Shown: positions 1,693 to 43,310 of the stretch, piece by piece
How the letters are laid out: every line of letters begins with the position of its first letter
Position numbering within the stretch: position 1 is the stretch's first letter
From: an uncultured Alphaproteobacteria bacterium
GTDB lineage: Bacteria > Pseudomonadota > Alphaproteobacteria > HIMB59 > GCA-002718135
Length of the DNA: 64,000 bases
NCBI GenBank assembly: GCA_902614085.1
Contig: CACMJS010000001.1
Span: forward strand, 735,127-799,126
Reading direction: 5' to 3'
Position numbers and translations under genes: made by a program
Notes under the pieces: generated by a model
The model's input: only the letters and a program-made list of their open reading frames with translations
Told to the model about the DNA's origin: nothing
Databases searched by the model: none

Positions 1693-2772
1693 TTATTTAA
1701 ATGCTTGTCCTGAACTATCAAATAATTGACATCTTCCAGCAGGGAATCCAACTTTTACAGTGTCACCAACTTTAATTTCTGAATGTCCTTCAGTTTCAGC
1801 AACTAGAGGTTCTCCATCTTTTTCAAGGTATAGGTAAGTAACGTCACCAAGTTTTTCGACAACAAATACTTTACTTTCCCAAGATCCATCTGAGTCACCA
1901 TTTACTATTAAGTGCTCAGGTCTAATTCCTAAAGTTACTGCATCACCTTCTGAGGAGGATGCTGACATTTTAGAGACTGATATTTTTGACATTCCCATAA
2001 TATCAACTTCTGTAGCATCTGAACTTTTGCTTAATATTTTACTAGAAATAAAGTTCATTTTTGGTGATCCAATAAATCCACCTACGAACATATTATTCGG
2101 TTTATCATAAAGTTCTAATGGAGATCCTTTTTGTGAAACGATACCTGTATCAAGAACAACAATATCATCGGCTAAAGTCATAGCTTCTGTCTGATCGTGT
2201 GTAACATAGATCATTGTTGCTTCTAGTTCATTATGAAGTTTTGCTAATTCAACTCTCATTTGAACTCTTAATGCAGCATCAAGGTTAGAAAGTGGTTCAT
2301 CAAACAAGAAAACTTTTGGTTTTCTTGTAATTGCTCTTCCAATTGCAACACGTTGTCTTTGACCACCTGAAAGTTGTTTTGGTTTTCTTTGAAGATAATC
2401 TTCTATTTGAAGAATTCTTGCTGCTTCATTAACTCTTTCATTAATTTCGTCTTTAGATCTTTTTTCTAATTTTAATCCAAATGCCATATTATCAAATACA
2501 GTCATATGAGGGTACAACGCATAAGATTGAAACACCATTGCAATATTTCTTTGCTTTGGTGGTAAGTCATTAACTACTTGACCATCAATTGAAATTGTAC
2601 CTGAATTGATATCTTCAAGTCCTGCTATCATTCTTAACATGGTTGATTTACCACAACCACTAGGTCCGACTAGAACTGTGAATGATTGACTTTTGATATC
2701 TAGAGATACGTCTTTAATTACGTGGACGTCTCCAAAATATTTATTAACAGTATTTATATTTATATCTGCCAC
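1693..2772 (-). CDS. Sugar ABC transporter ATP-binding protein (UgpC/MalK/AglK type)
   Basis: Walker A GPSGCGKST, LSGGQRQR signature, C-terminal TOBE-like region; GTG start at 2772 preceded by AAAGGAGG preferred over the ORF-track Met at 2823. Confidence 0.9.
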   Translation of the reverse strand: MADININTVNKYFGDVHVIKDVSLDIKSQSFTVLVGPSGCGKSTMLRMIAGLEDINSGTISIDGQVVNDLPPKQRNIAMVFQSYALYPHMTVFDNMAFGLKLEKRSKDEINERVNEAARILQIEDYLQRKPKQLSGGQRQRVAIGRAITRKPKVFLFDEPLSNLDAALRVQMRVELAKLHNELEATMIYVTHDQTEAMTLADDIVVLDTGIVSQKGSPLELYDKPNNMFVGGFIGSPKMNFISSKILSKSSDATEVDIMGMSKISVSKMSASSSEGDAVTLGIRPEHLIVNGDSDGSWESKVFVVEKLGDVTYLYLEKDGEPLVAETEGHSEIKVGDTVKVGFPAGRCQLFDSSGQAFK

Positions 2773-2874
2773 TTCATCCTCCTTTGAGCGATCTTTCAAG
2801 TGTATGAATACATCATCATACAAATATGAGTTTATTTAACGATAATTTAAAGAAAAAATCAATAGTTTTTAATA

Positions 2875-4997: not shown

Positions 4998-5019
4998 TAA
5001 TGATTAAATATATAAAAAA

Positions 5020-5053
5020 AACAGGCGAACAAGTTAATTGTCCGCCTGTTTTA
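5020..5053 (-). terminator. Intercistronic hairpin between substrate-binding protein and permease genes
   Basis: AAACAGGCGAACAA / TTGTCCGCCTGTTT stem, followed on minus strand by T tract. Confidence 0.7.
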
Positions 5054-5062
5054 AGGAGGTAG

Positions 5063-6373: not shown

Positions 6374-6420
6374 TATTCCTCCATATTTTTAATAAGATAA
6401 AATATATAATTTTATATTTT

Positions 6421-6436
6421 ACCAAAACGTTTTGGT
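6421..6436. promoter_or_regulatory. LacI-family operator palindrome
   Basis: ACCAAAACGTTTTGGT, perfect 16-bp palindrome with central CG between divergent binding-protein and LacI genes. Confidence 0.8.
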
Positions 6437-6470
6437 TGTCAATTCATTATTTCTCAGTTATTCATGTATT

Positions 6471-7501: not shown

Positions 7502-8497
7502 TTAAGAAGCAATTTCTTTACGAATATAATAACTATTATCTTTATGTTGTTTAATTATGGCTGGTATTATTTCTTTATAAGCGTCAAATAAGCTTGTGTT
7601 AGCTTTAGGTAGCTGATCTTTTATTAATTTACTTAGTTTTGGTAAATTGTAAGAGGGTACAGATGGAAACATATGATGTTCAACATGATACTCCATGTGC
7701 CAATACAAAAAGCTAAATATAGGATTAAATCGTACTGATCGAGTTGTGTATCTATGATCTTTAATATCTTCAGGAAGTCCTAAATGCTGCGTCATATTAA
7801 ATATATTGATGATGTTACCCCAGTATCTTGGGAAGAATATTAATAGTGCCGGAAGAGGGTTCATTAGATAAAATGATAAAGCAAAAGATGCAATCCATAA
7901 TAAAACATGTATTCTAGAGACTAGTCGGCATTTTGCTATTTCATTTTGAGGTATACAATCTCTCATAACAGGAGTCGTAAACCCTAAAGCATGTTTTATG
8001 ATTTCGTACTTAAATGAATGTTTAAAATATATTAACTCATAAAATGGAACAAAACTAAATAAAAAACTTTTTAAGCTTGGGTATTGATGAAATAAAGCGG
8101 CCTCGAAATCATGAGGGTCGCTCACTGATGACGTATTACTGTGATGTCTGAAATGACTCCAAGTCCATCTTGTAGGTTCAAAGTCAGTCATAAAAGAGCC
8201 AATTTGGTAAAAAATTTCATTTAAATATTTCGACTTGAAAGCCGTTCTATGACCACACTCATGCCAAATTGGATTACTAGAATAAAAAAGAACACCATAA
8301 AGCCATAGCCATAAGACTGTCCACCAAGTCCCCCATGTTGTTACTGACATGTAACCAAAGAAAAATAAAAGAATGAAATACAGAGTTACATGTTGTAAAC
8401 CTTTTAAATCACTTTTTTTTGATAATTGTTTTAGATCTTTTTTACTTATTTCAGCTCTAAACCACTTGTCATCAACATTATCTAGTTTTTCATTCAT
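7502..8497 (-). CDS. Fatty acid desaturase-family protein (paralog 1)
   Basis: Histidine boxes HECGH, HFRHHS, EYHVEHHMFP. Confidence 0.85.
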   Translation of the reverse strand: MNEKLDNVDDKWFRAEISKKDLKQLSKKSDLKGLQHVTLYFILLFFFGYMSVTTWGTWWTVLWLWLYGVLFYSSNPIWHECGHRTAFKSKYLNEIFYQIGSFMTDFEPTRWTWSHFRHHSNTSSVSDPHDFEAALFHQYPSLKSFLFSFVPFYELIYFKHSFKYEIIKHALGFTTPVMRDCIPQNEIAKCRLVSRIHVLLWIASFALSFYLMNPLPALLIFFPRYWGNIINIFNMTQHLGLPEDIKDHRYTTRSVRFNPIFSFLYWHMEYHVEHHMFPSVPSYNLPKLSKLIKDQLPKANTSLFDAYKEIIPAIIKQHKDNSYYIRKEIAS

Positions 8498-8558
8498 GAT
8501 TACAAAATAAATGTTGTTTTAAAAAAATTAAAGTTAAAAATTAACAATTTTGACACAC

Positions 8559-9626
8559 TTAAATGTTTAACCACTTTCCTGAATCACTACTTTCGTAACA
8601 TTTATCTAGGATTTGCTGTATTTCAGCTCCTCTTTTAAAATCAGGCTCATGATTTGTATTGCTTTCAATAGACTCAATAAATCTTTCAAAATTAGTAGGC
8701 GAAGGAGGGCATTTAATTTCCTTCCATTCTAATTTATCTTCTTTACTTGAAAATTCTCGTTCAGTATCATTAGTAAACATAAACTTATTACCTTCATTAA
8801 TAGGATCATCAAATTCAATTTTAACAGCACCTTTATCTCCAAATATTCTTAGTTCTAATCTATTTGAATAACCAGTTGCAAATCTAGTTGCATTGATAGT
8901 ACCGATTGCACCATTATCAAATTCTACCATAGATAAGAAAGTATCATTTGCATCTAAGATATAATCTTTAATTTTTTCTCCCTTAGAATGAAAAGTTTTT
9001 ATAAAAGAATTCAGTCTTTTGATCTTTCCAATCGGCCGAGAAGCAAAATCAAATATATGAACACCAATATCACCTAGTGTACCTTTGCTGCCATGATTTG
9101 TCGATAATCTCCAAAGCCATTTATCTTGTTCTTTCCAATTGCCCCAGTAGTTTGATGTTAGCCAAGATTGATTGTAATTTGCATCCATATGTATGATATT
9201 ACCAATTTTACCTTCTTTAACCATCTTACAAAGTTCTTGATACCCAGATGAATTACGATAACTAAAATTAACCATGTTAATAAGGTTTTTACCTTTAAGT
9301 GCATCACACATTAATTGAGCATCAGCAAAATTTTCAGCTAGCGGTTTTTCACAAAAAATATGTTTATTTTTTTCTATTGCTTTAATTGATATTTCTTTAT
9401 GAAAAGCATCAGGTGTTGTGTTTGAAATTGCATCTACATCTGATTTTTCTAAAAGTTCATCGACACTATTATATCTATGATCAATATTAAATTTATCACA
9501 AAACTCATTTAATCTATCATTATTTACATCACATGCTGCAACAACATCTGAACTTTTATTATCTTTAAAAGAACTTGCATGCCATTCAGCTATTCCACCT
9601 GTACCAACAATGCCAACTTTAATCAT
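8559..9626 (-). CDS. Gfo/Idh/MocA family oxidoreductase
   Basis: KVGIVGTGGIAEWHASSF Rossmann; CEKPLAENFADAQLM motif. Confidence 0.9.
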   Translation of the reverse strand: MIKVGIVGTGGIAEWHASSFKDNKSSDVVAACDVNNDRLNEFCDKFNIDHRYNSVDELLEKSDVDAISNTTPDAFHKEISIKAIEKNKHIFCEKPLAENFADAQLMCDALKGKNLINMVNFSYRNSSGYQELCKMVKEGKIGNIIHMDANYNQSWLTSNYWGNWKEQDKWLWRLSTNHGSKGTLGDIGVHIFDFASRPIGKIKRLNSFIKTFHSKGEKIKDYILDANDTFLSMVEFDNGAIGTINATRFATGYSNRLELRIFGDKGAVKIEFDDPINEGNKFMFTNDTEREFSSKEDKLEWKEIKCPPSPTNFERFIESIESNTNHEPDFKRGAEIQQILDKCYESSDSGKWLNI

Positions 9627-10408
9627 TTTTTATAATTATGATCTACTTGATATCCTTTTACCTCAATTGGCTCAACTGGTGTTGTTCTCTCCATATTGTC
9701 TATACCCTTAGCAATTCTATCAATCCAAATCCCGGATGTTTTTTCAGGACAAACCCAATGAACAGAATTTTTTATTACCCTTTGAACATCTTTATTATAA
9801 TAAACAGGGTAGGACTCGTGACCTGGTCTAAAATAAAATATTTTACCGTTACCTCTTTTATAACAAAGGCCTGATCTAAAAACTTCACCACCTTCAAACC
9901 AACTTACAAATACTGTTTCATCTGGTGCTGGAACTTGAAAAGGTTCTCCATACATCTCAGTCATATCAATTTCAAAATATTCCCCCAAACCTTCGGCAAT
10001 AGGGTGGCCTGGGTTGCAAACCCAAACTCTTTCCTTTTCTCCTCTTTCTGCCCATCTAATATTTGCAGTTGTACCCATCATTCTTTTAAATATTTTTGAA
10101 TGATGACCAGAGTGAAGTACTAAAAGACCCATTCCCTCTAAAACTCTTTGTTGTATCCTATCTACAATTTTGTCTTCTACTAGATTATGAGCTTTGTGGC
10201 CCCACCAAATTAGAACATCAGTTTTCTCAAGTAATTCCTCACTTAAACCATGATCTTTTTCTTCAAGAGTGGCAGTAGAAATATTCAAACTTTTATCCTC
10301 AGATAAAAAATCTTTAATACAACCATGAATACCTTTTGGGTAAATTGATTTTACATGTTCGTCTTCTTGTTCATGTACAAATTCATTCCAAATTACTAAA
10401 TTGACCAT
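9623..10408 (-). CDS. ThuA-domain protein
   Basis: VIWNEFVHEQEDEHVKSIYPKGIHGCIKDFL and VLIWWGHKAHNLV, GLLVLHSGHHSKIFKRMMGT. Confidence 0.85.
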   Translation of the reverse strand: MVNLVIWNEFVHEQEDEHVKSIYPKGIHGCIKDFLSEDKSLNISTATLEEKDHGLSEELLEKTDVLIWWGHKAHNLVEDKIVDRIQQRVLEGMGLLVLHSGHHSKIFKRMMGTTANIRWAERGEKERVWVCNPGHPIAEGLGEYFEIDMTEMYGEPFQVPAPDETVFVSWFEGGEVFRSGLCYKRGNGKIFYFRPGHESYPVYYNKDVQRVIKNSVHWVCPEKTSGIWIDRIAKGIDNMERTTPVEPIEVKGYQVDHNYKK

Positions 10409-10414
10409 GCTATT

Positions 10415-11389
10415 TTATCTGACTCTTCCACCGTGAAATCTGTGACCTAGAATTGCAAGTATTATAATTAAGCCATTAAAGAATTGTCTCCATACTCCAC
10501 TCATGCCCATAGCCACAACACCGACTTCCATATAAGCTATAACACCAACTCCAAAAACAGCTCCAACTATAGTTCCAACACCACCCCAAGTAGGTGTGCC
10601 TCCAATAAACACTGCAGCCAGAGCAAGTAATAAGTAACCAAATCCTTGCGTTGGCCACCAGGTAAAATTGATTAAACAGGAAAAAATTCCTGCAAGTGCC
10701 GCACCTAAACCAACATACATAAAAGCACTTATTCTAACCCAATTAACATTAATTCCCATTTGTGCCGCTGAGTCTGGATTGTCTCCTACATGATGAATAT
10801 GGATTCCAAATACATGTTTCCTGTAAAGATAATAGGAAAATATTGTAAACAACGCAGCCCAGTACACTTGCATTGGAACACCAAAGAGTTTCCCAACTAA
10901 TACATCGTAGATCCAGTGATCAGAAATTTCCATAAAAGAAATTGATTTACTATCACTAGCTACAAACAAAAATCCTCTTATAAAAAATAATGCCCCAAGA
11001 GAAGCAACCAAGGATGAAAGGCGTCCATAAACAACTAAACATCCCATTAGTATACCAACTACTGCTCCAGAAAGTATTCCTATAAGAATACATAATAATG
11101 GATCAAGTCCCGCTTTTAATAAAAGAGCAAAAATGTATGCTGACAATCCAAAAGTAGAGGCAAAAGACAAGTCTATTTCTCCTGCAGTAACTAAAAAAAC
11201 AAGAGGTATAACCATAAACATAATTACTGGAAGCATTACAAAAACAGATTGATGTAAATTTGGTCTCATCATTACTTCTGGAGCTCCAATTAGGAAAACC
11301 AACATTAAAATTATAAAGTAACCTAAGCTTCCTAATGCTCTTCCATTTTTTCCAATTAAATTTTTAAATGTATTTTCTTTGGTACTCAT
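10415..11389 (-). CDS. Ribose-type sugar ABC permease (RbsC/FrcC-like)
   Basis: Polytopic; TAGEIDLSFAS, LAAVFIGGTPTWGGVGTIVGAVFG typical of BPD_transp_2. Confidence 0.9.
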   Translation of the reverse strand: MSTKENTFKNLIGKNGRALGSLGYFIILMLVFLIGAPEVMMRPNLHQSVFVMLPVIMFMVIPLVFLVTAGEIDLSFASTFGLSAYIFALLLKAGLDPLLCILIGILSGAVVGILMGCLVVYGRLSSLVASLGALFFIRGFLFVASDSKSISFMEISDHWIYDVLVGKLFGVPMQVYWAALFTIFSYYLYRKHVFGIHIHHVGDNPDSAAQMGINVNWVRISAFMYVGLGAALAGIFSCLINFTWWPTQGFGYLLLALAAVFIGGTPTWGGVGTIVGAVFGVGVIAYMEVGVVAMGMSGVWRQFFNGLIIILAILGHRFHGGRVR

Positions 11390-12135
11390 TAATGTTTACT
11401 CACTGCATCTTTCATAACTTTCATAAGTGCTTCAGGACCCTCAATATCATTTTTATTTAATTGATGAACAACTTCACCTCTGTCTAAAACAATAAATCTA
11501 TCAGAAATATCATAGACATGATAAATATTATGACCAATAAATAAAACTGATCTTCCAGATTTTTTAACATTATCTACAAAATCAAAAACTTTTTGAGTCT
11601 CAATGAGTGAAAGGGCTGTTGTTGGCTCATCCAATACAATTAACTCTGCATTGTTATATATTGCTCTTGCTATTGCTACTCCTTGTCTTTCACCACCCGA
11701 TAAATTACCAACGGGTGATTCAGCATCAATTAGTTTTGATGTAAATCCAATTTCTCTAATTAATTTGTTTGCTTCTCTTACTTGTTCTTTTTCTCTTATA
11801 AAACCAAATCTATGTTTTAATTCTTTGCCCATAAAAATATTCCACACTATCGATTGCTGTGGACATAAGGCTCTGTCTTGGAAAACAGTTTCTATTCCAG
11901 CCTCTCTGGCTTTTGAGGCATTCCAATTTTTAACTTCATTTCCTCTAATTATAATTTGTCCATCATCCGGAGCATGAACACCAACTAACGTTTTGATTAA
12001 TGTGGATTTACCAGCTCCATTATCTCCAATAAGTCCAACAACTTCTCCAACATCAACTTTTATTGATGCTTTTTTTAATGCTGTTATTCCGCCAAAACTT
12101 TTGGAAACATTTTTAAGTTCTATTATTGCGCTCAT
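11389..12135 (-). CDS. Sugar ABC transporter ATP-binding protein (single-domain, FrcA-like)
   Basis: GDNGAGKSTLIKTLVG, NLSGGERQGVAIARA, LDEPTTALS. Confidence 0.9.
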   Translation of the reverse strand: MSAIIELKNVSKSFGGITALKKASIKVDVGEVVGLIGDNGAGKSTLIKTLVGVHAPDDGQIIIRGNEVKNWNASKAREAGIETVFQDRALCPQQSIVWNIFMGKELKHRFGFIREKEQVREANKLIREIGFTSKLIDAESPVGNLSGGERQGVAIARAIYNNAELIVLDEPTTALSLIETQKVFDFVDNVKKSGRSVLFIGHNIYHVYDISDRFIVLDRGEVVHQLNKNDIEGPEALMKVMKDAVSKH

Positions 12136-12141
12136 ATATAT

Positions 12142-12168
12142 AGCTGATCTACTTACAGTAGATCAGCT
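12142..12168. repeat. Intercistronic perfect hairpin between binding-protein and ATPase genes
   Basis: AGCTGATCTAC-ttaca-GTAGATCAGCT. Confidence 0.7.
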
Positions 12169-12181
12169 CTGTTTGATATAT

Positions 12182-13171
12182 TTATCTTAAACCTGCGTTA
12201 GCAAGTTCCATAACTGATTTGTAATTCTCAGTATGTACAAATCCTGCACCAGTATCTTGATTTAATGCTCCAGTTCCAAGAACTTTCATTTGACATAAAG
12301 CAAGTACAGGTAAATAGCCTTGTAAGAATGGTTGCTGATCAGAAGTTAAATGAACATAACCATTTTCAAAAGCTGTCATGATTTGCGGACTAGTATCAAA
12401 GCCGATTTGCAATAATTCTCCTGGACCATATCCAGCAGCTTTAGCATATGCTTCAGCATTTCCTAGTTTCTGACCACCATCATGTACAATAATTTTTGTA
12501 TCAGGATTTGCAGCTAGTGCAGCTGAAAATACTGGGATTGCAAGATTTGGATCAGTTGCTTGTTCAGGAGTACCATCAAGAACTACAACATTCATTCCAT
12601 GTTCTTCAAAAATTATTCTAGCGCCATCTTCTCTTTGCGCTCTTGAATAATCTCCAATTGGAACCATTACAATAGCAGTATCACCAGCTTTAAGATCAAA
12701 TCTTCTAATTGCTTCTCTTGCTAATTCTTTACCTTGAGTTGCAAGATTTGCACCAACGTATCCACCTCCATAAGCAGCTCTTACTGCAGGAACATCAACG
12801 TTTTGGTACATCATTAAGATACCAGCTTCACTAGCCATTTTAGCTAGAGGCATAATTGCATCATCACCAGGGTGACCCATCATACCAATACCATCAACGC
12901 CAGCACCAATTGCCTCTCTTAGTTGTTGAATCATTCTGTCTGATTGCCATTCTGAATAAAGAATTTCGGCATCAGCACCAGTATCTCTGATAGCATTTTC
13001 AGCACCAGTTTGAACTATTCCTGCGAAACCATCGCCTTCAGCTCCACCAGCAAAGAAGTGAATTCTTACATCACTACACCATCCATCACCTAAGTTTTTA
13101 TCAATAGCATAAACTGAACCACTGAAAGAAAAAACGAAGAGTGTTGATAATAAAATTTTTAATATTTTCAT
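12182..13171 (-). CDS. Sugar-binding protein, RbsB-like (periplasmic)
   Basis: Signal peptide; VDGIGMMGHPGDDAIMPLAKMASEAGILMMYQNVD; type-1 periplasmic binding fold. Confidence 0.85.
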   Translation of the reverse strand: MKILKILLSTLFVFSFSGSVYAIDKNLGDGWCSDVRIHFFAGGAEGDGFAGIVQTGAENAIRDTGADAEILYSEWQSDRMIQQLREAIGAGVDGIGMMGHPGDDAIMPLAKMASEAGILMMYQNVDVPAVRAAYGGGYVGANLATQGKELAREAIRRFDLKAGDTAIVMVPIGDYSRAQREDGARIIFEEHGMNVVVLDGTPEQATDPNLAIPVFSAALAANPDTKIIVHDGGQKLGNAEAYAKAAGYGPGELLQIGFDTSPQIMTAFENGYVHLTSDQQPFLQGYLPVLALCQMKVLGTGALNQDTGAGFVHTENYKSVMELANAGLR

Positions 13172-13233
13172 TATTCCTCCCTTGAATAAATATAATGTAA
13201 GTGAACTTAAAAAATTAAATTAGTAATGTCAAC

Positions 13234-14670
13234 CTAGTAGAGTCTTTTACTAATCCTTTTGGTCTGACCGTGACTATACACCCCATCTACACCACCATCT
13301 CTTCCATAACCTGACCTTTTGTAACCACCACCTGGAAGATTATTTCCATCAACAAACCAATCGTTTTGCCAAATTATTCCTGCTTGAATTCTATCAGCAG
13401 TCCATTTTGCTTTTTGGTCATCTGCTGTAAATACTCCGGATGCAAGACCGTATTTTGTTGAATTAGCTATACTTATTGCTTCTTCTTCATCTTCAAAATC
13501 AAATATTGATGTTACTGGACCAAATATTTCTTCTTGGGCAATTGTTGCATCAACTTTGACATTATCAAAAATAGTTGGTTGGTAAAAATTACCATCATCT
13601 CTCTCAGCTTTATCTCCACCTATGGTTAAAGTCGCACCAGATTGTACGCCAGATTTTACATAATTTGAGACTCTTTGCATTTGATCAGTTGATATTAAGG
13701 GTGTTACATCTGTTCCTTCCTCATCACCTGCACCTATTTTTAATTTTTGCGTTTTTGCTACTAGCTTTGTCATATATTCATCTTTAATTTTAGGATGAAC
13801 TATAACTCTAGACATTGCCACACATATTTGACCTGCATTTGGTTTAAAAATTCCTTTAACTGTGCTGTCTACAGCTTTATCAATATCAGCATCGGGATAA
13901 ATTATAGCTGCAGACTTTCCTCCTAATTCAAAATGAGTAGGTATAATTCTATCTGCTGTTTCTTTAAGAATTTCTGAGGCAACTTCAGGTGATCCAGTAA
14001 AGACAATATAATCACTTCCAGGATGTTGAACTAATTTTCGACCAGTTGTTTCTCCATAACCATGAACAATATTTATAATTCCTTTTGGAACGCCAACATC
14101 TTCAAAAATTTGACCATAAAAATTAGAAGATATAGGGCAAAGTTCGGGAGGTTTTATAACTATAGTATTTCCCACTATCCAATTCTGTGCAACCATTCCT
14201 GAAAATATAGAAACTGGATAATTCCAAGGTACAATCTGAAGTGCAACACCAAAAGGCTCTAAAACGACATAGTTTAATGTATCTTTACCAGATGGAATTA
14301 ATTTATTTTCTATTTTATCAGTTAATCCAGCGTAGAAATCAAAGGTATCGGCTGCACCTTCAAATTCACCAATACATTGTTTTATTGTTTTACCGTTTTC
14401 TTGACTTAAAAGTTTACCGCCTTCATTTTTTCGCTCTCTTAATTTTTGAGCTATGGCTCTCATCATTTTTGATTTTTCTTTAGCATCCATGTCAACTAAA
14501 ATTCTTTTATCAAATGCTTTTTTTGCAGCCTGAAAAGCTAAATCAATTTCTTGATCTAATGCTTCATCAATATTCCCTACAATTTTTTGATTAGCAGGAT
14601 TTAGAACAGGAATATTTTTTTTTGATATTGAATCAATAAACTTACCGTCAATAAAATTTCTTAACTCCAT
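13234..14670 (-). CDS. Aldehyde dehydrogenase (NAD-dependent, betaine-aldehyde-dehydrogenase type)
   Basis: FELGGKSAAIIYPDAD, PNAGQICVAMSRV catalytic region, QEEIFGPVTSI. Confidence 0.9.
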   Translation of the reverse strand: MELRNFIDGKFIDSISKKNIPVLNPANQKIVGNIDEALDQEIDLAFQAAKKAFDKRILVDMDAKEKSKMMRAIAQKLRERKNEGGKLLSQENGKTIKQCIGEFEGAADTFDFYAGLTDKIENKLIPSGKDTLNYVVLEPFGVALQIVPWNYPVSIFSGMVAQNWIVGNTIVIKPPELCPISSNFYGQIFEDVGVPKGIINIVHGYGETTGRKLVQHPGSDYIVFTGSPEVASEILKETADRIIPTHFELGGKSAAIIYPDADIDKAVDSTVKGIFKPNAGQICVAMSRVIVHPKIKDEYMTKLVAKTQKLKIGAGDEEGTDVTPLISTDQMQRVSNYVKSGVQSGATLTIGGDKAERDDGNFYQPTIFDNVKVDATIAQEEIFGPVTSIFDFEDEEEAISIANSTKYGLASGVFTADDQKAKWTADRIQAGIIWQNDWFVDGNNLPGGGYKRSGYGRDGGVDGVYSHGQTKRISKRLY

Positions 14671-14716
14671 ATAAGGATATAGATAAAACTAAAGCTCAAG
14701 ATGTGTCAAGTATAGT

Positions 14717-15727
14717 TTAATTATTCGGAACTTTAACAGGAATAAAATAGTCTGGATTTTTCGATTTCTTTATAACCGCTGGAATAATTTCTTTATAAGC
14801 TTGATATAAAGTTTGTGGCTCTGGCATTTGATCTTTTATTACTTCATATAATTTAGGAAGATTGTATGAAGGTATCATAGGAAACATATGGTGCTCAATA
14901 TGGTATTCCATCTTCCAATAAATAAAACTAAAAATCGGATTAAGTCTAACTGATCTTGTCGATAGGCGGTGATCCTTGGCATTTTCTTTTAGACCCATGT
15001 GTTGCGTCACACCCCAGATGCCATTGATGCCAAAGAACTTTGGGATTAAAAATAAAAATATTGGAAGAAAGGTAGAAAAGTAAATTGAAGCAGCTATTAT
15101 TGTGACCCATAATAAGACAAAAATTCTAGAACTATTAATACAATCTTTGATTTTATCTTCTGGAATACAATCTTTCATTACATTAGTTTGAATGCCTAAA
15201 GCATGTTGAATAATTTCAACATAAAGTGATTTGTGAATAGTAAAGAAACCAATTCCGGGAATAAAATTTAAAATAAAACTTACAAATGTATGTTTAGCAA
15301 AAATACTCCCATCAACTTCATAATCATGAGGGTCAACCGAAGCGGTATAGCTGTGGTGAAGAGAATGGCTCCACTTCCATCTAACAGGTTCAAAATTATT
15401 CATAAAACTAGCAATGTTATAGAAGAATTTATTTAATCTTCTATTTTTAAAAGCGGTTCCATGACCACACTCATGCCATATAGCGTCAGCTCCACCCCAC
15501 ATCGTGCAATAAGCAAGATACGCAGGTACAAACCATAGGCTATTCCATGTATATAGGCATAATGAACACAGGATCCCTAATGATAGTACATAAACAATAA
15601 TATGTTTCCAACCTTCAAAATCTGACCTTTTGGATAGGTTTTTGAGTGTTTTTCTATCTATGTTAGCCTTAAACCATTCCTCTGAAATATTGTTTATCCC
15701 TGTTTGAATTTTTTTTGTCTCTGGCAT
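14717..15727 (-). CDS. Fatty acid desaturase-family protein (paralog 2)
   Basis: HECGH, HSLHHS, EYHIEHHMFP; aligns along its length with 7502..8497. Confidence 0.85.
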   Translation of the reverse strand: MPETKKIQTGINNISEEWFKANIDRKTLKNLSKRSDFEGWKHIIVYVLSLGILCSLCLYTWNSLWFVPAYLAYCTMWGGADAIWHECGHGTAFKNRRLNKFFYNIASFMNNFEPVRWKWSHSLHHSYTASVDPHDYEVDGSIFAKHTFVSFILNFIPGIGFFTIHKSLYVEIIQHALGIQTNVMKDCIPEDKIKDCINSSRIFVLLWVTIIAASIYFSTFLPIFLFLIPKFFGINGIWGVTQHMGLKENAKDHRLSTRSVRLNPIFSFIYWKMEYHIEHHMFPMIPSYNLPKLYEVIKDQMPEPQTLYQAYKEIIPAVIKKSKNPDYFIPVKVPNN

Positions 15728-34148: not shown

Positions 34149-34937
34149 TTAATAAGCACTAGTTTTATCAGATTTAGTATCTACATCTTTCAATTCTTTT
34201 AATAAACTTTCAGCATGTGATGTCATCATTCTAAAATCAGAAAGTAACGTGGTGAATTGAAAACCATATTCCATCATTTCTTTCATATACTTAACTGATC
34301 CATTATGAATACCAGCAATCTTTCCTTTTTCTTTTGCTTTTTTTGCAATCATTTTAATGTTTGAAAATACCGGATCTTTACGAACATCAAATTTAGGTGG
34401 CAAACCATAAGAAGAACTCATATCCGCAGGCCCAATATATATGCCAGTTAAGTTTGGAACCGAGAGAATGGCATCAAGATTCTCCACTGCTTGTTTCGTT
34501 TCGATCATTGCTAAACTTACAATATTATCATTTGCGTGTTGATAGTAATCTGAACCATAAACTACTTGAGCTCTCATAGGGCCAAAACTCCTTTGACCTA
34601 TTGGTGGATAATAGCAATATGAAACGAACTTTTCGCAGTCCTCTTTTGTATTAATCATTGGTGCAATAATTCCTTGAATACCTAAATCTAACATTTTCAT
34701 AATTATACCTGGCTCGTTCCATGGAACTCTTGTCATAGGTACAGTATCACTATTCGTTAATCCCTGAACCATTGCAATAGCTGTTGAATAATCATTTTGA
34801 CCATGTTGCATATCAATTGTAACAGAATCCCATCCCATTTTTCCAAACGCTTCAGCTGTAAAAGAATTAGGTATAGATAACCATGCATTGACTGATGCCT
34901 CACCTTTATTCCATATTTGAAATAATTTGTTTTTCAT
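34149..34937 (-). CDS. HpcH/HpaI aldolase family protein
   Basis: VTIDMQHGQNDY, TRVPWNEPGIIMKMLDLGIQGIIAPMINT, GIYIGPADMSSSYG. Confidence 0.9.
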   Translation of the reverse strand: MKNKLFQIWNKGEASVNAWLSIPNSFTAEAFGKMGWDSVTIDMQHGQNDYSTAIAMVQGLTNSDTVPMTRVPWNEPGIIMKMLDLGIQGIIAPMINTKEDCEKFVSYCYYPPIGQRSFGPMRAQVVYGSDYYQHANDNIVSLAMIETKQAVENLDAILSVPNLTGIYIGPADMSSSYGLPPKFDVRKDPVFSNIKMIAKKAKEKGKIAGIHNGSVKYMKEMMEYGFQFTTLLSDFRMMTSHAESLLKELKDVDTKSDKTSAY

Positions 34938-35087
34938 GAAAATATTACCTTAATATTATTTACATTAAATTACTATTAAAAATAAGTTATTATTTATTTA
35001 ATACATACCCAGATATTGTTGATTGAAATATATTAACTTGAAGTGGCTCTAAAATTCTTTAAGGTATAAGTATTAAATGGAGGAATT

Positions 35088-36416
35088 ATGATAAAAACAA
35101 TAATAAGTTTTGTTTCCGCAATAATTTTATCTGTATCTTTTTCCGCTTTTTCAAAAACCAAAGTTACTTGGTCTATGGAATCTAATGCTGATAGAGATCC
35201 TATATTTTTAGAAAAGTTACAAAATGCTTATAATAGTGCTCAAGATAAGTATGAATTAGAAATTCAATTTGAGCCAAATGAAACACGTATAGAATCTTTA
35301 CGTACATCAATGCTAGCTGGTATGGGTCCTGATATTGTTGAAACACCTGGTCCATCTTATGTAAAAGAATATCAAGAAGCAGGCATGTTGGAAAATCTTG
35401 ATTCTTATGCTGCCGAATTTGGATGGAAAGATAAATTAATTCCATGGGCATATAGTTCAGGAGTTTTTGATGGAAGTTTATATGCTATTCCTAAAACTCA
35501 TGAGTCAATGGTAATGCTTTATAATAAAACTCTTTTTGAAGAAAATGGATGGAAAGTACCAACTACATTAGAAGAATTAGAAGATGTAGCTGGAAAAATT
35601 AAAGCTAAAGGAATGGATGTTTACACATATGGTTCCTCTGGTTGGCAACCAACCCATGAACATTTGGTTGGAATTTATTTAAACAATTATGCTGGTCCTC
35701 AAGCTGTTTATGAAGCAATCACTGGTGAAAGAGAATGGACTGATCCAGTATTTGTTGAAGCTTTAGAACTTCTTAAAAAACACATGGTTGATGAAGGCTG
35801 GTGGTCTGGAAGTTTAGAAAACTACTATGCTATTGGATGGGATGATTTCCATGCACAATTTGCTACTCGTGGAGCAGCGATGATGACAATTGGAACTTGG
35901 ACATTCCAAGCAACAAGTTTAGGTATTGGTCAATCTGGTGATGAATGGGGTTGGGCTCCTTTACCCTCTCTATCATCTAACTCTGGTGGACCAAACTTTA
36001 TGATTGCAATTGGTACTACAATGTCAGTAAATGCTGCTGCAAAAAATAAAGATGGTGCAATTGATGTTTTAAATTGGATTATGTCTAATAAAGATGTTGT
36101 AATTGATATTGCTAGTGACTTCCAATTTGGAGAGTTCGTAGTACCACTATTGCTTGATGATAGCGATATTCCTAGCACAATATCTCCTCAAGTAACTAGT
36201 TACTTAAATGAGTATGCTAGAATTACAGGAGAAGGTAATTATGGATATTGTACATGGACTTTTTGGCCAGCTGAACCAGGAGTTCATATTTGGAAAGATA
36301 TGGAGGTTGTATGGGCAGGTGATATATCTGTAGAAGACTTCATGTATGATCATCAAAAAATGTGGGATAAGGCAAGAAAGAAAAATGAAACGTTGCCTGT
36401 CCCATTAAGAGACTAA
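35088..36416 (+). CDS. Extracellular sugar-binding protein (family 1)
   Basis: Signal peptide; GMGPDIVETPGPSYVKEYQEAGMLENLDSYAAE; ALPKTHE-type hinge region. Confidence 0.87.
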   Translation: MIKTIISFVSAIILSVSFSAFSKTKVTWSMESNADRDPIFLEKLQNAYNSAQDKYELEIQFEPNETRIESLRTSMLAGMGPDIVETPGPSYVKEYQEAGMLENLDSYAAEFGWKDKLIPWAYSSGVFDGSLYAIPKTHESMVMLYNKTLFEENGWKVPTTLEELEDVAGKIKAKGMDVYTYGSSGWQPTHEHLVGIYLNNYAGPQAVYEAITGEREWTDPVFVEALELLKKHMVDEGWWSGSLENYYAIGWDDFHAQFATRGAAMMTIGTWTFQATSLGIGQSGDEWGWAPLPSLSSNSGGPNFMIAIGTTMSVNAAAKNKDGAIDVLNWIMSNKDVVIDIASDFQFGEFVVPLLLDDSDIPSTISPQVTSYLNEYARITGEGNYGYCTWTFWPAEPGVHIWKDMEVVWAGDISVEDFMYDHQKMWDKARKKNETLPVPLRD

Positions 36417-36426
36417 TATATATTTT

Positions 36427-36457
36427 AAAAACGAAGCTCAAAGAGCTTCGTTTTTTT
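36427..36457 (+). terminator. Intercistronic terminator-like hairpin after binding-protein gene
   Basis: AAAAACGAAGCTC-aaa-GAGCTTCGTTTTT followed by Ts. Confidence 0.85.
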
Positions 36458-36482
36458 ATAATTTTCTTTTAAATATAATTTA

Positions 36483-37358
36483 ATGAATTTTTTATCTAAG
36501 AAAAGTTACATTGCTTGGTATTTTGTAATACCAGTAGTATTTATTCATTTATTTGTAATAGGTATTCCATCTATTTTAAGTCTTGCATTATGTCTTACCG
36601 ATTGGAGTGGATTAGGTAAAATAAATTACGTTGGTTTTGAAAACTTTATAGAACTCTTTGATGATAGATATTTTAAGAAAGCTATTTTCCATAATATTTT
36701 ATGGACAATTATTTTCTTAACTGTTCCAGTTTGTATAGCACTTATGTGTGCTTATTTACTTACTGGAATTAAACGTGGCCAAATGTTTTATCGTCTAGCC
36801 TTCTTTTTTCCTTATATGCTTGCAAGTGTAGTTAATTGTCAAATTTGGAAATATCTTTTCCATCCTATTCATGGATTAGGTGGTTTTTTTGAGTCTATAG
36901 GAATAGAAGCTTTAGCTTCTTCTCCTTTTACTACAAAAGAAACTTCACTTTATGCTGCTGCATTTGTGGATGGTTGGCATTTTTGGGGATTTTTAGTCGT
37001 AATATATTTAACTGGAATGTATCAAGTTGATAATCATTTATATGAAGCAGCCGATATAGAAGGTGCCAGCAAGTTTCAAAAATTTAGGTATATAACTTTA
37101 CCCATGATTAGACCGATTTTTATTTTTAGTCTTATGATTATAATTATTTGGTCAGTACCCGTATTTGATTATGTTTATATTTTAACTGGAGGAGGACCCG
37201 CATACAGTTCAGAAGTTGTTGCTAATTATCTTTATACCCATGCTTTTGTTAGATTTAATGTTGGCTATGCATCTGCAGTTGGAACTTTAATGTTTATTTA
37301 TGTAATATTTATCGTTGGAATATTTGGTCTTTTAAGAAAATTAGGTTGGGAGATATAA
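36483..37358 (+). CDS. Sugar ABC permease (MalF-like)
   Basis: EAADIEGASKFQKFRYITLPMIRP EAA loop; polytopic. Confidence 0.9.
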   Translation: MNFLSKKSYIAWYFVIPVVFIHLFVIGIPSILSLALCLTDWSGLGKINYVGFENFIELFDDRYFKKAIFHNILWTIIFLTVPVCIALMCAYLLTGIKRGQMFYRLAFFFPYMLASVVNCQIWKYLFHPIHGLGGFFESIGIEALASSPFTTKETSLYAAAFVDGWHFWGFLVVIYLTGMYQVDNHLYEAADIEGASKFQKFRYITLPMIRPIFIFSLMIIIIWSVPVFDYVYILTGGGPAYSSEVVANYLYTHAFVRFNVGYASAVGTLMFIYVIFIVGIFGLLRKLGWEI

Positions 37359-38195
37359 ATGTTAGTTTCAAATTTTAGAAGAAAAGAAGCAATACCAAAT
37401 CATTTTATATTAATTTTATTTGCACTTTTAGCTGTACTACCAATCTTAGTTTTATTTTTCAATTCTATTAAGCCTTTTAGTGAGTTTGGTTTGAATCCTT
37501 TAGGGCCTCCATCTGAAATTAGGTTACAAAATTTTCCAGATGCTTGGATTGCTGGAGAATATACAAAAATTTTTTTTAATTCAGCAAAACTTGTTTTTGG
37601 ATCAGTCTTATTATGTCTTGCTGTTTCTTTGTTAGCTGGTTTTAGTTTAGCAAAATTAAATCCAAAAGGATCAACTGTAATAGCAATATACTTATTAGTT
37701 GGTATTAGTATACCTGCTCAGCTTTATATACTTCCTCTGTTTCTACTTTGGAAAGAATTAAGTTTATTAAATACACATGTCGGACTGATAATTATATATT
37801 CTGCATTAAATGCTCCTTTTGCAACATTTTTAATTAGATCTTATATGATTAGACTTCCAGATGAATTATTTGATGCCGCAAAACTTGATGGCGCGAATAC
37901 ATTTCAAATTTTTTTTAGAATAGCCTTACCATTATCATGGCCTGTTATATTAACAGCTGGATTAATAATTGGATTAGCAGTTTGGAATGAATTTTTATTT
38001 GCTCTTACCTTTATCACTGATCCAAATTTTAAACCAATGGCTACAATTCTATTTTCATTTCAAGCTAGATTTGAAAATAATTATGCTTTACAAAGTGCAG
38101 CTGCTATAATGATGGTAGCTCCAATTGCCGTTTTATTCATGTTGTTCCAAAGAAGATTTATTTCAGGATTAACAAGTGGAGGATTAAAAGAATAA
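37359..38195 (+). CDS. Sugar ABC permease (MalG-like)
   Basis: DAAKLDGANTFQIFFRIALPLSWPV EAA loop; polytopic. Confidence 0.9.
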   Translation: MLVSNFRRKEAIPNHFILILFALLAVLPILVLFFNSIKPFSEFGLNPLGPPSEIRLQNFPDAWIAGEYTKIFFNSAKLVFGSVLLCLAVSLLAGFSLAKLNPKGSTVIAIYLLVGISIPAQLYILPLFLLWKELSLLNTHVGLIIIYSALNAPFATFLIRSYMIRLPDELFDAAKLDGANTFQIFFRIALPLSWPVILTAGLIIGLAVWNEFLFALTFITDPNFKPMATILFSFQARFENNYALQSAAAIMMVAPIAVLFMLFQRRFISGLTSGGLKE

Positions 38196-40357
38196 TGACT
38201 TTTAAGTTAGATAAAAATTTTGAGGAAAAGGTTTACGCAGGTGTATTAGGTAAAATAATTGGCGTATTTCTTGGACGTCCATTTGAAGGTTGGTCTTATG
38301 AAAGAATAATGAAGGAATTGGGACCTATTAATTATTATGTAAATGAAAAATTAGATTTCCCGTTACCTGTCTCTGATGATGACATTACTGGCACATTTAC
38401 CTTTCTTCGTGCTTTTAGAGAGTGCAATTTTAACAAAAATATTACTGCTAAAGATATAGGTAAAACGTGGTTAAATAATATTATTGAAGATAAAACAATT
38501 CTATGGTGGGGAGGAAAAGGACATTCAGCAGAAGACACAGCTTTTCAAAATTTAAAACAGGGTATTGATGCGCCTGATAGTGGTTCAATTAAAACTAATG
38601 GTAAGGTAATTGCTGAACAAATAGGAGCTCAAATTTTTATTGATGGTTGGGCCATGGTAGCACCTGGTGATCCAGAAAGAGCAGTTCATTATGCTAAACT
38701 TGCTGCAAGTGTTAGTCATGATGGAGAGGCAATTTATGGTGCACAAGTTGTAGCTGCTCTAGAGTCAATGGCCTTTGTTGAAAGTGATTTAACAAAGTTA
38801 GTTGAGCAAGCTAAAAAATATATTCCAGATAATTCAGTAATATTTAGATTAATATCTGATATACAAGAATGGCGATCTGGAAATTTAGGTTGGGAACAAG
38901 CAAGAGAAAAAATTGCTGAAAATTACGGATACGATAAATATTTAGGTAACTGTCATATGGTACCCAATCATGCTTTAATTATTATGGCTTTATTGTTTGG
39001 AGATGATGATTTTCAAAAAACTATGATGATTGTGAATACAGCAGGTTGGGATACTGATTGTAATTCAGGAAATGTTGGTTGTATTTTAGGAATTAAAAAT
39101 GGAATAGAAGGACTTAAATCAGGTCCTGATTATTTATCTCCTATAAATGATATTTTATATTGTCCCTCTGCATCAGGAGGTGAAACACTTACTGATGCAC
39201 TGACAGAAACTTACAAAATAATTAATACAACTAGAAAAATTAATGGTTTAGAAGAAAATTTACCTAAAAATGGAGCTAGATTTCATTTTGATATTAAAGA
39301 TTCAACACAAGGTTGGCGAACTAAAGTTGGAAATAAGTTTTGTGAAACAATAATTAGTAATGTCGAATACAATTCTAAATTAGGTGAAAGAGGTTTAAAA
39401 ATTACATATAAAAATCTTTCAGAAGATTTAACATCGGAAGTGTATGTAGAAACATTTTTTCCTGAGGTAATTTTAGATTTAAAAGGAAAAAAAAGAGATG
39501 ATTTTTTTCATTACGATTATATTTCTTGCCCAACTATTTTTCCAGGTCAGAAAGTAACTTTGGAAATAGAAAATATTTTTTCTCATGAAATTTCAATCAC
39601 ATTATTCTCAAAATATTGGGGTGAAAATGATAAACTTCAAAAAATTTCTTCAAATATTTTTAAAATAAGTGGCAATGAAAAAAAACAAATATCATGGGAT
39701 GTGCCTGACACTGACTCAAACCCTATAGGTCAAATTGGTTTTAATATTTCATCGAATGAAAAAAAAGAAGGAGAAATTATTCTTAACTATGTTAATTTTG
39801 AAGGAGAGCCAAAACAAACATTTAAAAGACCTGATCACGTAGAAAATTATCAAAGAGGTAAAGAAAAAAAAGAGGGCTACTATGGTGAAATTTGGAGAAA
39901 TGCATGGGTTCAATCATTAGACAAATGGGAAAAGAGAGGTAAAAATTTTAGAATTTGCCAAAATAATGGTAGGGGAATTTTATTTACTGGAACAGATTTA
40001 TGGAGAAATTATTCAATTGCATCAAGTATTATGTTGCAGTCTAGTAACTCTGGAGGAATAGTATCAAGAGTCCAAGGTGTAAATAAATACTACACCTTTG
40101 AAATTTGTAAAGGGAATAAGTTACGTATTGGAAAGATGAATAATGATTATAAAATATTAAAAGAAGAAGAATTTGAAGTAGAATTTTTTAAAGAATATAA
40201 TTTAAAAATGACAGTAATGAAAAATAAAATTATTGGACATATTAATGATAAAGTTATTATTGAAGTTGAGGATGATGACTCTCCTTTTCTTAGAGGTGGA
40301 GCAGGTTTAGTTGTTGATAATGGAACTTTAGTAACAGAACAGATAATCTTAAATTAA
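38195..40357 (+). CDS. ADP-ribosylglycohydrolase-family protein with large C-terminal beta-rich extension (720 aa)
   Basis: KIIGVFLGRPFEGWSYE, VSDDDITGTFTFL, GHSAEDTAFQNL, SHDGEAIYGA, NTAGWDTDCNSGNVGCILG (DraG/ARH metal-site motifs). Confidence 0.85.
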   Translation: MTFKLDKNFEEKVYAGVLGKIIGVFLGRPFEGWSYERIMKELGPINYYVNEKLDFPLPVSDDDITGTFTFLRAFRECNFNKNITAKDIGKTWLNNIIEDKTILWWGGKGHSAEDTAFQNLKQGIDAPDSGSIKTNGKVIAEQIGAQIFIDGWAMVAPGDPERAVHYAKLAASVSHDGEAIYGAQVVAALESMAFVESDLTKLVEQAKKYIPDNSVIFRLISDIQEWRSGNLGWEQAREKIAENYGYDKYLGNCHMVPNHALIIMALLFGDDDFQKTMMIVNTAGWDTDCNSGNVGCILGIKNGIEGLKSGPDYLSPINDILYCPSASGGETLTDALTETYKIINTTRKINGLEENLPKNGARFHFDIKDSTQGWRTKVGNKFCETIISNVEYNSKLGERGLKITYKNLSEDLTSEVYVETFFPEVILDLKGKKRDDFFHYDYISCPTIFPGQKVTLEIENIFSHEISITLFSKYWGENDKLQKISSNIFKISGNEKKQISWDVPDTDSNPIGQIGFNISSNEKKEGEIILNYVNFEGEPKQTFKRPDHVENYQRGKEKKEGYYGEIWRNAWVQSLDKWEKRGKNFRICQNNGRGILFTGTDLWRNYSIASSIMLQSSNSGGIVSRVQGVNKYYTFEICKGNKLRIGKMNNDYKILKEEEFEVEFFKEYNLKMTVMKNKIIGHINDKVIIEVEDDDSPFLRGGAGLVVDNGTLVTEQIILN

Positions 40358-40360
40358 AAT

Positions 40361-41344
40361 ATGAAATATAGAAAATTTGGCTCTCTTGATTGGAATATAT
40401 CTGAAATAGGTTTAGGCTGTTGGCAAATTGGTGCTGATTGGGGAAATGTTAGTGAAGAGAAGGCAAATGAGGTATTACAATCATCATTTGAAAATGGTGT
40501 AAACTTCTTTGATACTGCTGATGTCTATGGCATGGGTAGAAGCGAAAAATTTGTAGGTGAATTCATTAAATCAGTATCTGAAAGAATTTATGTAGCAACA
40601 AAAGCTGGAAGACAAATCAATCCTCATGTTGCCGAGGGGTATTATGATAAAGCTTTAATGGAATCTTATGTAGATCAATCTTTATCAAATCTTAATGTTG
40701 AAACAATTGATCTTTTACAAATGCATTGCCCTCCAACAGAAGTATATTCATCTGATAAGACTTTTGAAATGTTAGATTATTTAGTCAGTAAAGGAAAAAT
40801 ACAAAATTATGGTTTTAGTGTTCAAACTGTTGATGAAGCATTAGAATGTATAAAGCGACCCAATACAAAATCTATTCAAGTTATATTCAATATTTTTAGG
40901 CAAAAACCTGCTGAAGAATTATTCAAAATAGCAAAAGAAAAAGAAATTGCCATTATTGTAAGAGTTCCTCTTGCAAGCGGATTGCTAACTGGGAAGTTTA
41001 ATAAAGATTCTTCTTTTGCATCAGATGATCACCGAAATTATAACATTAATGGTGATGCGTTTGATGTAGGTGAAACTTTTTCCGGTGTTAATTTTACTAA
41101 AGCTCTACAAGCTGTTGATGATTTAAAAAATATTCTACCAGATGGAATGACTTTATCTCAATTATCTTTGAAATGGATTTTAATGCATGATGCTGTGACT
41201 GTTGTAATACCTGGAGCTAAAAATAAAGGGCATGTAAATTTAAATACATCTTCATCAGAAATTGAAGATATTTCTTCTTTAATGAATCAAATAAATAGTG
41301 TTTACACAAAATACTTTTATGACGATGTTCATCATCGTTGGTAA
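40361..41344 (+). CDS. Aldo/keto reductase
   Basis: EIGLGCWQIG, FFDTADVYGMGRSEKFVGEF, LSLKWILMHDAVTVVIPGAKN. Confidence 0.92.
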   Translation: MKYRKFGSLDWNISEIGLGCWQIGADWGNVSEEKANEVLQSSFENGVNFFDTADVYGMGRSEKFVGEFIKSVSERIYVATKAGRQINPHVAEGYYDKALMESYVDQSLSNLNVETIDLLQMHCPPTEVYSSDKTFEMLDYLVSKGKIQNYGFSVQTVDEALECIKRPNTKSIQVIFNIFRQKPAEELFKIAKEKEIAIIVRVPLASGLLTGKFNKDSSFASDDHRNYNINGDAFDVGETFSGVNFTKALQAVDDLKNILPDGMTLSQLSLKWILMHDAVTVVIPGAKNKGHVNLNTSSSEIEDISSLMNQINSVYTKYFYDDVHHRW

Positions 41345-42498
41345 ACATTACTTTGTTAGAAGAAACTAAAATTTTTAGGAGAGCAACGCTTGCATCAGTA
41401 ATTACCTCTACCTATCCAATGATAGTTGTAGGTTGCTATTTTGGAATAACACCTTGGAATATGCAGAGACTTTCAATTGATGAGTCCGATTTAAGTTATG
41501 CAATATTAATTTTCGGTATTTTTTTTATTATATCTAATCAAGTTGCTGGAAGGATATTAGTCCCAAAATATGGAACTAAATTAGTTATGACTTTGGCTTT
41601 TCCTATTGTTACTTTTTCTGCCTTATTGACTGTTATTTCCTCATCATATTTTTATTTTTTATTAACTTTTATATCTGGCGGAATAGGATGGGGTGCATCT
41701 GGACCAATTGGAGGTATACATAGTCAACTTATTGAAAAACATTTTAAAAAAATTATTACCCCTTATTATGCTATGGGATTTAACTTAGGAATTCTACTCG
41801 GAGGTGGATTAGCAGGTTTAATAATGAGGAATAATTATGAACCTTACATATCCTTTACGATCTTATCATTTTTATCAATCTTAATTTCTTATTTTGTATA
41901 TTCATTTGGATTACCTCGAGATTTAGATTTTAAAGGTGAAGGTGAAAAATTTAAATTTCCAGAGACGAATGTTCTTTTATTTGGATTTTTGTTATTTTTT
42001 GTTTTTGGATCAGGTGGAATAATTATGGATTGGTCGACATTATGGTTGTCAAAAGATTTGAATACTCCTCTATATTTAGCAAGTATGGGATTGATCTTTT
42101 TTAGTATAGGGGGGATTTTTGCTAATTTATTTTCAAATTCTTTGATTAATTTATTTACTGAAAAAGTAGTTGGTTGTTACTTTGTGATGATTGGCGCAGT
42201 TATAATGTTCTTGTCTTTATTAACCAATAATTTTTACATTATACTGGCAGTTCTATGTATTTATGGATTTGCTATTGCAAATTTAGTTCCTATAATAATT
42301 CGACAAGCGGTCAAACAATCAAATGAGAGTATCCCAATGACTGTGACTAATCTAATAACAATTGGATTGTCTTCCACCATGATTTTGCCTGCTGGAATTG
42401 GTTTTCTTGCTGAAACATATTCATTAACATTAAATATGTATTTATTAACCTTTGTAGTATTTACTTGTGCTGTTATATTTTTGTTTAAATATAAATAA
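41338..42498 (+). CDS. MFS transporter
   Basis: About 12 hydrophobic segments; GGIGWGASGPIGGIHSQLIEKHF. Confidence 0.85.
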   Translation: MVNITLLEETKIFRRATLASVITSTYPMIVVGCYFGITPWNMQRLSIDESDLSYAILIFGIFFIISNQVAGRILVPKYGTKLVMTLAFPIVTFSALLTVISSSYFYFLLTFISGGIGWGASGPIGGIHSQLIEKHFKKIITPYYAMGFNLGILLGGGLAGLIMRNNYEPYISFTILSFLSILISYFVYSFGLPRDLDFKGEGEKFKFPETNVLLFGFLLFFVFGSGGIIMDWSTLWLSKDLNTPLYLASMGLIFFSIGGIFANLFSNSLINLFTEKVVGCYFVMIGAVIMFLSLLTNNFYIILAVLCIYGFAIANLVPIIIRQAVKQSNESIPMTVTNLITIGLSSTMILPAGIGFLAETYSLTLNMYLLTFVVFTCAVIFLFKYK

Positions 42499-42503
42499 AA
42501 ATA

Positions 42504-43310
42504 ATGGATAAACTTAGAATATCTCAAATTCAATTTTCTGCTAGTCATATACCAAATTTAAATGCAAAAATTTTAGAACAAAATTTTAAAAAAACATTAA
42601 AATTTAAACCTCATTTAATTTGTACACCGGAATGCTCAAATATTATTACCAATGATAAAAATTTTTTAATATTAAATGCTTCATATCAAAATGAATGCCC
42701 AGTTTTGAAGATGGCAAAAGATTTTGCGAAGAAAAATAAAGTTAATATAAATCTAGGCTCCTTACTTTTAAAAGTAAATAATAATAGAAAGCTTGTTAAT
42801 AGATCTTTTTTTATTGATAATAATGGAGTGATAAAAAAAACATATGATAAAATTCATATGTTTGATGTCAAAATTAATAACAAAGAAAAACATCAGGAGT
42901 CATCACTCTTTAAAGCAGGCAAGAAAATTATTTATGCAAAAATTAATAATATTAAATTAGGAATGACAATTTGTTATGATCTTAGATTTCCTAATTTATA
43001 CAGGCAACTTGCTAAAAGAGATTGTTCAATTATTTTGGTTCCAGCTGCTTTCACTAGGCCAACTGGAAAAGATCACTGGGAGATTTTGAACCGATCAAGA
43101 GCCATAGAGAATAATGTATTTATAGTAGCAACAGGTATGTGTGGAAATCATCATATGAAAAGAAAAACTTTTGGACATTCTCTCTTAGTAGATCCATGGG
43201 GAAAAATTGTAATTAGTACCAAAAATAAACCTACAATTCTTAACTCAACCATTAATATTTCTGATGTAAAAAAAATAAGAAAAAAAATTCCTTCTCTAAA
43301 ATATGACTAA
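42504..43310 (+). CDS. Carbon-nitrogen hydrolase (nitrilase superfamily)
   Basis: CTPECSN, KTYDKIHMFDV, GMTICYDLRFPNLYRQLA (Glu-Lys-Cys triad). Confidence 0.9.
   Translation: MDKLRISQIQFSASHIPNLNAKILEQNFKKTLKFKPHLICTPECSNIITNDKNFLILNASYQNECPVLKMAKDFAKKNKVNINLGSLLLKVNNNRKLVNRSFFIDNNGVIKKTYDKIHMFDVKINNKEKHQESSLFKAGKKIIYAKINNIKLGMTICYDLRFPNLYRQLAKRDCSIILVPAAFTRPTGKDHWEILNRSRAIENNVFIVATGMCGNHHMKRKTFGHSLLVDPWGKIVISTKNKPTILNSTINISDVKKIRKKIPSLKYD

Follow-up and report, generated by a model that had tools for sequence, protein, structure and literature searches.

Enzymes of the ADP-ribosylglycohydrolase (ARH) fold, such as DraG, ARH1-3 and MJ1187 (PF03747), have been studied chiefly as erasers of protein modification; those characterised act on ribose, and ARH3 splits O-linked ribosyl bonds. 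The present analysis concerns a 64-kb window (the whole stretch of DNA analysed) from an AT-rich genome of 1.65 Mb, the nearest genome records to which are uncultured marine alphaproteobacterial single-cell genomes, and, within it, a 720-aa ARH protein encoded directly downstream of a sugar importer. The genes at 34149-42498 were read and Pfam profiles were searched against the encoded proteins. The yegTUV genes of Escherichia coli likewise group a transporter, a short ARH protein and a sugar kinase, and their function is likewise unproven (PMC10819704); however, YegU is short and canonical, being 17% identical over the domain, and the uptake protein of yegTUV belongs to the major facilitator superfamily (MFS), not to the ATP-binding cassette (ABC) transporters. 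In the literature searched, no experimental work that could be recognised as concerning the subfamily of the 720-aa protein was found.

Because of its fold, its conserved site and its repeated gene linkage, it is proposed, with middling confidence, that this ARH-fold hydrolase frees ribose from an imported riboside and thereby feeds a ribokinase. The unit 35088-42498 would then be a mobile catabolic cassette, in which a CUT1-type importer, driven by a shared ATPase of the MalK type whose gene lies elsewhere, would bring in a small riboside. The ARH-fold domain would act in the cytoplasm, holding ribose via an acidic metal site and hydrolysing its bond to the aglycone, and the two C-terminal beta-sandwich modules might assist in holding the substrate or in ordering the domains. 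The freed ribose would be phosphorylated by the cell's ribokinase and enter the pentose phosphate pathway, and the aldo/keto reductase (AKR) and the MFS transporter of the unit would be accessories particular to the lineage, perhaps acting on the aglycone or on a side product. If this is true, a large uncharacterised ARH branch tied to import and ribokinase would mean that the fold also serves in processing food, and it could partly account for the capacity of the AEGEAN-169/HIMB59 group to import sugars, which is expanded (PMC10308909). The genome of the window is probably AEGEAN-169/HIMB59-like. Ribosides would also be a directly testable substrate class for such importers in ocean bacteria.

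The ARH protein and its conserved signature

The N-terminal part of the protein gave a strong ADP_ribosyl_GH match (E 3.5e-52, 178 bits versus a cut-off of 26), and both profile and fold place it in the PF03747 superfamily. In a full-length AlphaFold model built with 48 relatives (mean pLDDT 91.5), this domain is predicted to resemble MJ1187 (TMt 0.77) and ARH3 (TMt about 0.70), with values of 0.69-0.77 over the two. A DraG/ARH domain of about 340 residues with metal-site motifs had already been recognised in the preliminary description, and both the domain and the motifs are present.

With DraG, ARH1-3 and MJ1187 the domain shares the N-terminal fold, the adjacent Asp pair, the D-T-D motif and a Glu after the first glycine loop. 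It differs from them in an invariant signature, GV..LG.P.E, DDD and GWDTDCN in place of GD, TDDT and DTDT, although DDD cannot be aligned with TDDT unambiguously, MAFFT and hhalign placing it one residue apart; it also differs in invariant Trp residues, in the additional C-terminal 370 residues and in the import-operon setting. The canonical ARHs, YegU and the short paralogues among them, carry GD, TDDT and DTDT/S, whereas GV, DDD and DTDC are found throughout the subfamily. Judging from the sequences, the signature sets the subfamily apart within the ARH kind. Among 107 full-length sequences there was no variation at E31, D61-D63, W105, H175, H254, D286-T287-D288-C289-N290 and other positions. 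The acidic residues E31, D61, D62, D286 and D288, presumably metal ligands as they are in DraG and ARH3, occur in 107 of 107 sequences, so that the loss of metal-site residues, which would have spoken against the earlier assignment, was not seen.

A Pfam search of the C-terminal half, an NCBIfam search with the enzyme and a PDB sequence search with the 720-aa protein alone as query all gave no match. The preliminary description had likewise recognised no family in the C-terminal part, and its guess of beta-sandwich or carbohydrate-binding modules proves right at the level of the predicted fold: two beta-sandwich modules are modelled there (pLDDT 92.3 when this half was modelled on its own, with the middle module mostly above 90). 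The last module is predicted to be close to CBM66 (4azz/4b1m; TMt 0.82-0.85, rmsd 1.7-1.9 Å by Foldseek), while by sequence the similarity is weak (profile E 9e-5, 17-18% identity). In the models the middle module is covered by galactocerebrosidase and CBM22-tandem matches with low TM, and the galactocerebrosidase lectin domain (Glyco_hydro_59_C) was matched in 35 of the 48 relatives at E <= 1 (best 1.6e-7). A search of viral folds returned lectin-like tail proteins of a general kind besides a few ARHs, and was uninformative. The CBM66 of Bacillus subtilis levanase and the galactocerebrosidase lectin domain have the predicted fold of the last module, but in the window this module is attached to an ARH domain, and no signal peptide was seen on the protein.

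The likeness to the crystallised levanase CBM66 would suit a furanosidase that acts on a different sugar (a fructofuranoside or arabinofuranoside, for example), with the neighbouring kinase phosphorylating that sugar. CBM66-like folds are, however, common, the resemblance lies at the level of a predicted fold, and the ARH enzymes characterised so far act on ribose; the kinases that bear on this explanation are considered below.

One scan of genome contigs located 353 stretches with genes for relatives, and the best 80 of them were retained. The hosts of the relatives are Chloroflexota, Deinococcota, rhizobia and other marine Alphaproteobacteria; Rhodobacteraceae, SAR116, Trueperaceae and Rhizobium are among the hosts, and members in Rhizobium, Agrobacterium, Enterobacter and Deinococcus are plasmid-borne. 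The 720-aa layout is common to relatives outside the window's lineage (about 42-52% identity), and a one-off fusion is ruled out by these widespread full-length relatives. In an even sample of 385 alphaproteobacterial genomes, that of the window alone gave a match at E <= 1e-60.

Linkage to importer and ribokinase genes

A family 1 binding protein and two permeases, the set that defines a CUT1 importer, precede the enzyme in the window; an ATPase gene is not in the operon. Seven MalK-type ATPase genes occur in the genome, and the MalK/UgpC-type ATPase of another operon in the window is one of several that could power this importer. The best solved relatives of the binding protein, 3vxb and 7ehp, are oligosaccharide-binding proteins, and it is itself the sole close copy in its genome.

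Neighbourhoods were compared in 32 marine loci and in 38 non-marine loci whose upstream sequence was long enough, counting in the latter same-strand genes within 5.5 kb. The binding protein and two permeases lie immediately upstream of the enzyme in 31 of the 32 marine loci. Binding-protein and permease genes of the window's type were found in 13 of the 38 non-marine loci, with none farther out, and a binding protein alone in one more; this scoring relies on similarity to the window's genes and on short flanks, and other importer types would escape it. Further neighbours in the non-marine loci were a LacI regulator (9), ribokinase (4), another PfkB kinase (5) and a short ARH (4), and beyond 5.5 kb importer, LacI, kinase and short-ARH genes were almost absent. 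Two loci have, beside the importer genes, a second ARH-like gene of about 600 aa whose product has a signal-peptide-like N-terminus (L092 17075-18865, L096 15485-17302). In one sublineage a GntR-like regulator gene lies ahead of the importer (L117 6582-7268, L118 6070-6756); none was seen in the window's operon.

Four Chloroflexota loci (L076, L081, L088, L101) carry a D-ribokinase above the NCBIfam cut-off, 3-35 bp from the enzyme and on the same strand, upstream of it in two loci and downstream in two. PfkB-type genes number 12 in 47 non-marine loci, and nine of these lie within 100 bp of the enzyme on the same strand. On an Agrobacterium plasmid, one operon (L136) encodes a LacI regulator, two permeases, a binding protein, a short ARH, a long ARH, UgpC and ribokinase. 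The window's genome has one ribokinase above the cut-off, outside the operon, adjoining genes that read as RbsD/FucU-like, aldehyde dehydrogenase-like and DeoC-like. The adjoining true ribokinases and this ribokinase/RbsD-type cluster point to ribose as the product, and the earlier suggestion that an ARH enzyme in an import operon cleaves a small imported riboside is probably correct. In Sinorhizobium/Ensifer, CoA transferase and CoA ester lyase genes take the place of the ribokinase (L133 12150-14209, L139 11142-13192) and might process an acidic aglycone in the rhizobial operon.

Several observations weigh against the release of ribose from an imported riboside. One marine locus (L044) keeps the enzyme without an importer there, with 78 bp between HpcH and the enzyme (9922-10001), and no recognised importer gene lies near the enzyme in 23-24 of the 38 non-marine loci; homologs without a sugar-ABC context, named beforehand as a sign against an import function, are thus frequent outside the sea and exceptional within it, and the import link is therefore frequent, not obligatory. 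None of the marine operons has a ribokinase, and the Agrobacterium member belongs to a distant branch (about 30% identity), its kinase scoring 279 against a cut-off of 300. Cys stands invariably at position 289, where other ARHs have Thr or Ser, and Val replaces Asp at position 24; the metal chemistry may therefore differ. Finally, five adjoining kinases are PfkB-type yet not clear ribokinases, and some members (L064, L072, L132) have other sugar-enzyme genes at their flanks, which read as GH4, GH13, GH2 and trehalase. The last two points would favour the furanosidase for another sugar; set against the four adjoining ribokinases above a curated cut-off, that explanation seems rather unlikely.

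The many members without an importer nearby, together with the retained fold and metal-site Asp residues, would also fit the classical role of an ARH, the removal of ADP-ribose from proteins or nucleic acids of the cell, the importer being incidental. The recurrent association with LacI, importer and ribokinase genes, the departure from the canonical GD, TDDT and DTDT, and the occurrence of up to four tandem copies within one import operon make such a role quite improbable. A narrower form of the riboside proposal is that the imported substrate is either a fragment derived from ADP-ribose or NAD or a ribosyl-nucleoside, with ribosyl O-linked to a nucleoside; ARH3 does cleave O-linked ribosyl bonds. 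One example, for the rhizobial members, is the plant compound 3'-O-ribofuranosyladenosine, which builds up in Arabidopsis leaves during infection (PMC6290457). Among the loci whose neighbouring genes were read, however, none showed a recognisable nucleobase-processing gene next to the enzyme, and this analysis met with no evidence for such a compound in seawater. This narrower form appears improbable.

Boundaries, insertion and recombination of the operon

All open reading frames (ORFs) of the preliminary description were confirmed in place and strand, with junctions of -7 to +66 bp in the co-directional operon (Table 1). The extent of the unit needs correction: the run of co-directional genes continues beyond 42498 into a nitrilase and then a methyltransferase gene, and the divergent HpcH/HpaI aldolase is a separate, older chromosomal gene.

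Table 1. Genes and protein modules discussed, with their positions in the window.
Feature	Position	Strand	Basis and remarks
MalK/UgpC-type ATPase of another operon	1693..2823	-	52% identity to UgpC of the Agrobacterium operon
HpcH/HpaI aldolase, flanking, outside unit	34149..34937	-	Pfam HpcH_HpaI above cut-off; neighbours nitrilase gene in operon-less relatives
Solute-binding protein, family 1 (CUT1-type)	35088..36416	+	Pfam SBP_bac_1 1.4e-25; signal-peptide-like N-terminus
ABC importer permease A	36483..37358	+	Pfam BPD_transp_1; weakly GlcT/UgpA-like
ABC importer permease B	37359..38195	+	Pfam BPD_transp_1; GlcU/UgpE-like; 1 bp overlap with ARH start codon
ARH protein, 720 aa	38195-40357	+	Pfam ADP_ribosyl_GH
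ARH-fold catalytic domain (predicted), residues 1-350	38195..39244	+	Pfam ADP_ribosyl_GH residues 16-308; conserved E31, D61, D62, D63, D286, D288, C289
Middle beta-sandwich module (predicted), about residues 351-545	39245..39830	+	AlphaFold model
C-terminal CBM66-like lectin module (predicted), about residues 558-720	39866..40354	+	Foldseek, profile match
AKR, IolS-like, accessory	40361..41344	+	Pfam Aldo_ket_red 4.1e-61; 1pyf IolS E 1.6e-35
MFS transporter, accessory; may be an exporter or a second importer	41338..42498	+	Pfam MFS_1 3.3e-19; TTG start; 7 bp overlap with AKR gene
Nitrilase-family amidase, flanking, outside unit	42504..43310	+	Pfam CN_hydrolase 5.1e-43; empty-site comparison

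In four genomes without an enzyme match (G004, G015, G029, G032) the HpcH and nitrilase genes are divergent neighbours, 62-100 bp apart; HpcH adjoins the nitrilase gene in the operon-less loci L122, L123, L124 and L128. These empty-site genomes are 56-88% complete, and the relevant contigs cover the insertion site. In L047 and L048 HpcH and nitrilase are adjacent, and the operon lies on the far side of the ABC-F and neighbouring genes. The comparison thus shows the operon to be inserted between the HpcH and nitrilase genes, and it rules out as a pathway partner the aldolase, to which processing of the released sugar had been ascribed. The AKR, proposed for the same task, is confined to the window's own genus-level lineage and is ruled out as a general partner. 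In L121, L125, L126 and L127 a single gene of 355-368 aa, which reads like a secreted sugar dehydrogenase, lies between HpcH and nitrilase.

Tandem 720-aa ARH genes occur inside one import operon as four copies in L112 (3143-11893), L113, L114 and L119 and as two copies in L115 and L120, all in small-genome relatives. The copies are 51-71% identical to each other and, according to the tree, are old paralogues shared between genomes. Across the lineage there are importer types 95-100, 81-87 and 65-74% identical to that of the window, and enzyme types 95-97, 82-84 and 71% identical; the two combine freely, for instance in L034, L041, L045, L047 and L048, as if the importer and hydrolase versions (L032-L053 compared with window 35088-40357) were modules that recombine. 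A more tentative and rather doubtful extension is that the subfamily forms a new class of metal-dependent ribosidases, with a DDD/DTDC-type ARH fold and its own lectin module, for feeding on dissolved ribosides, in which tandem copies and swappable importers would give marine bacteria a combinatorial riboside diet.

Elsewhere in the window, 1693-7484 holds a separate ABC operon for sugar, which includes an ATPase gene of its own and a gene for a LacI-type regulator. The stretch 7502-15727 reads as a Gfo/Idh oxidoreductase, a ThuA-like protein, a CUT2-type importer and an aldehyde dehydrogenase, apparently flanked by two desaturase-like genes.

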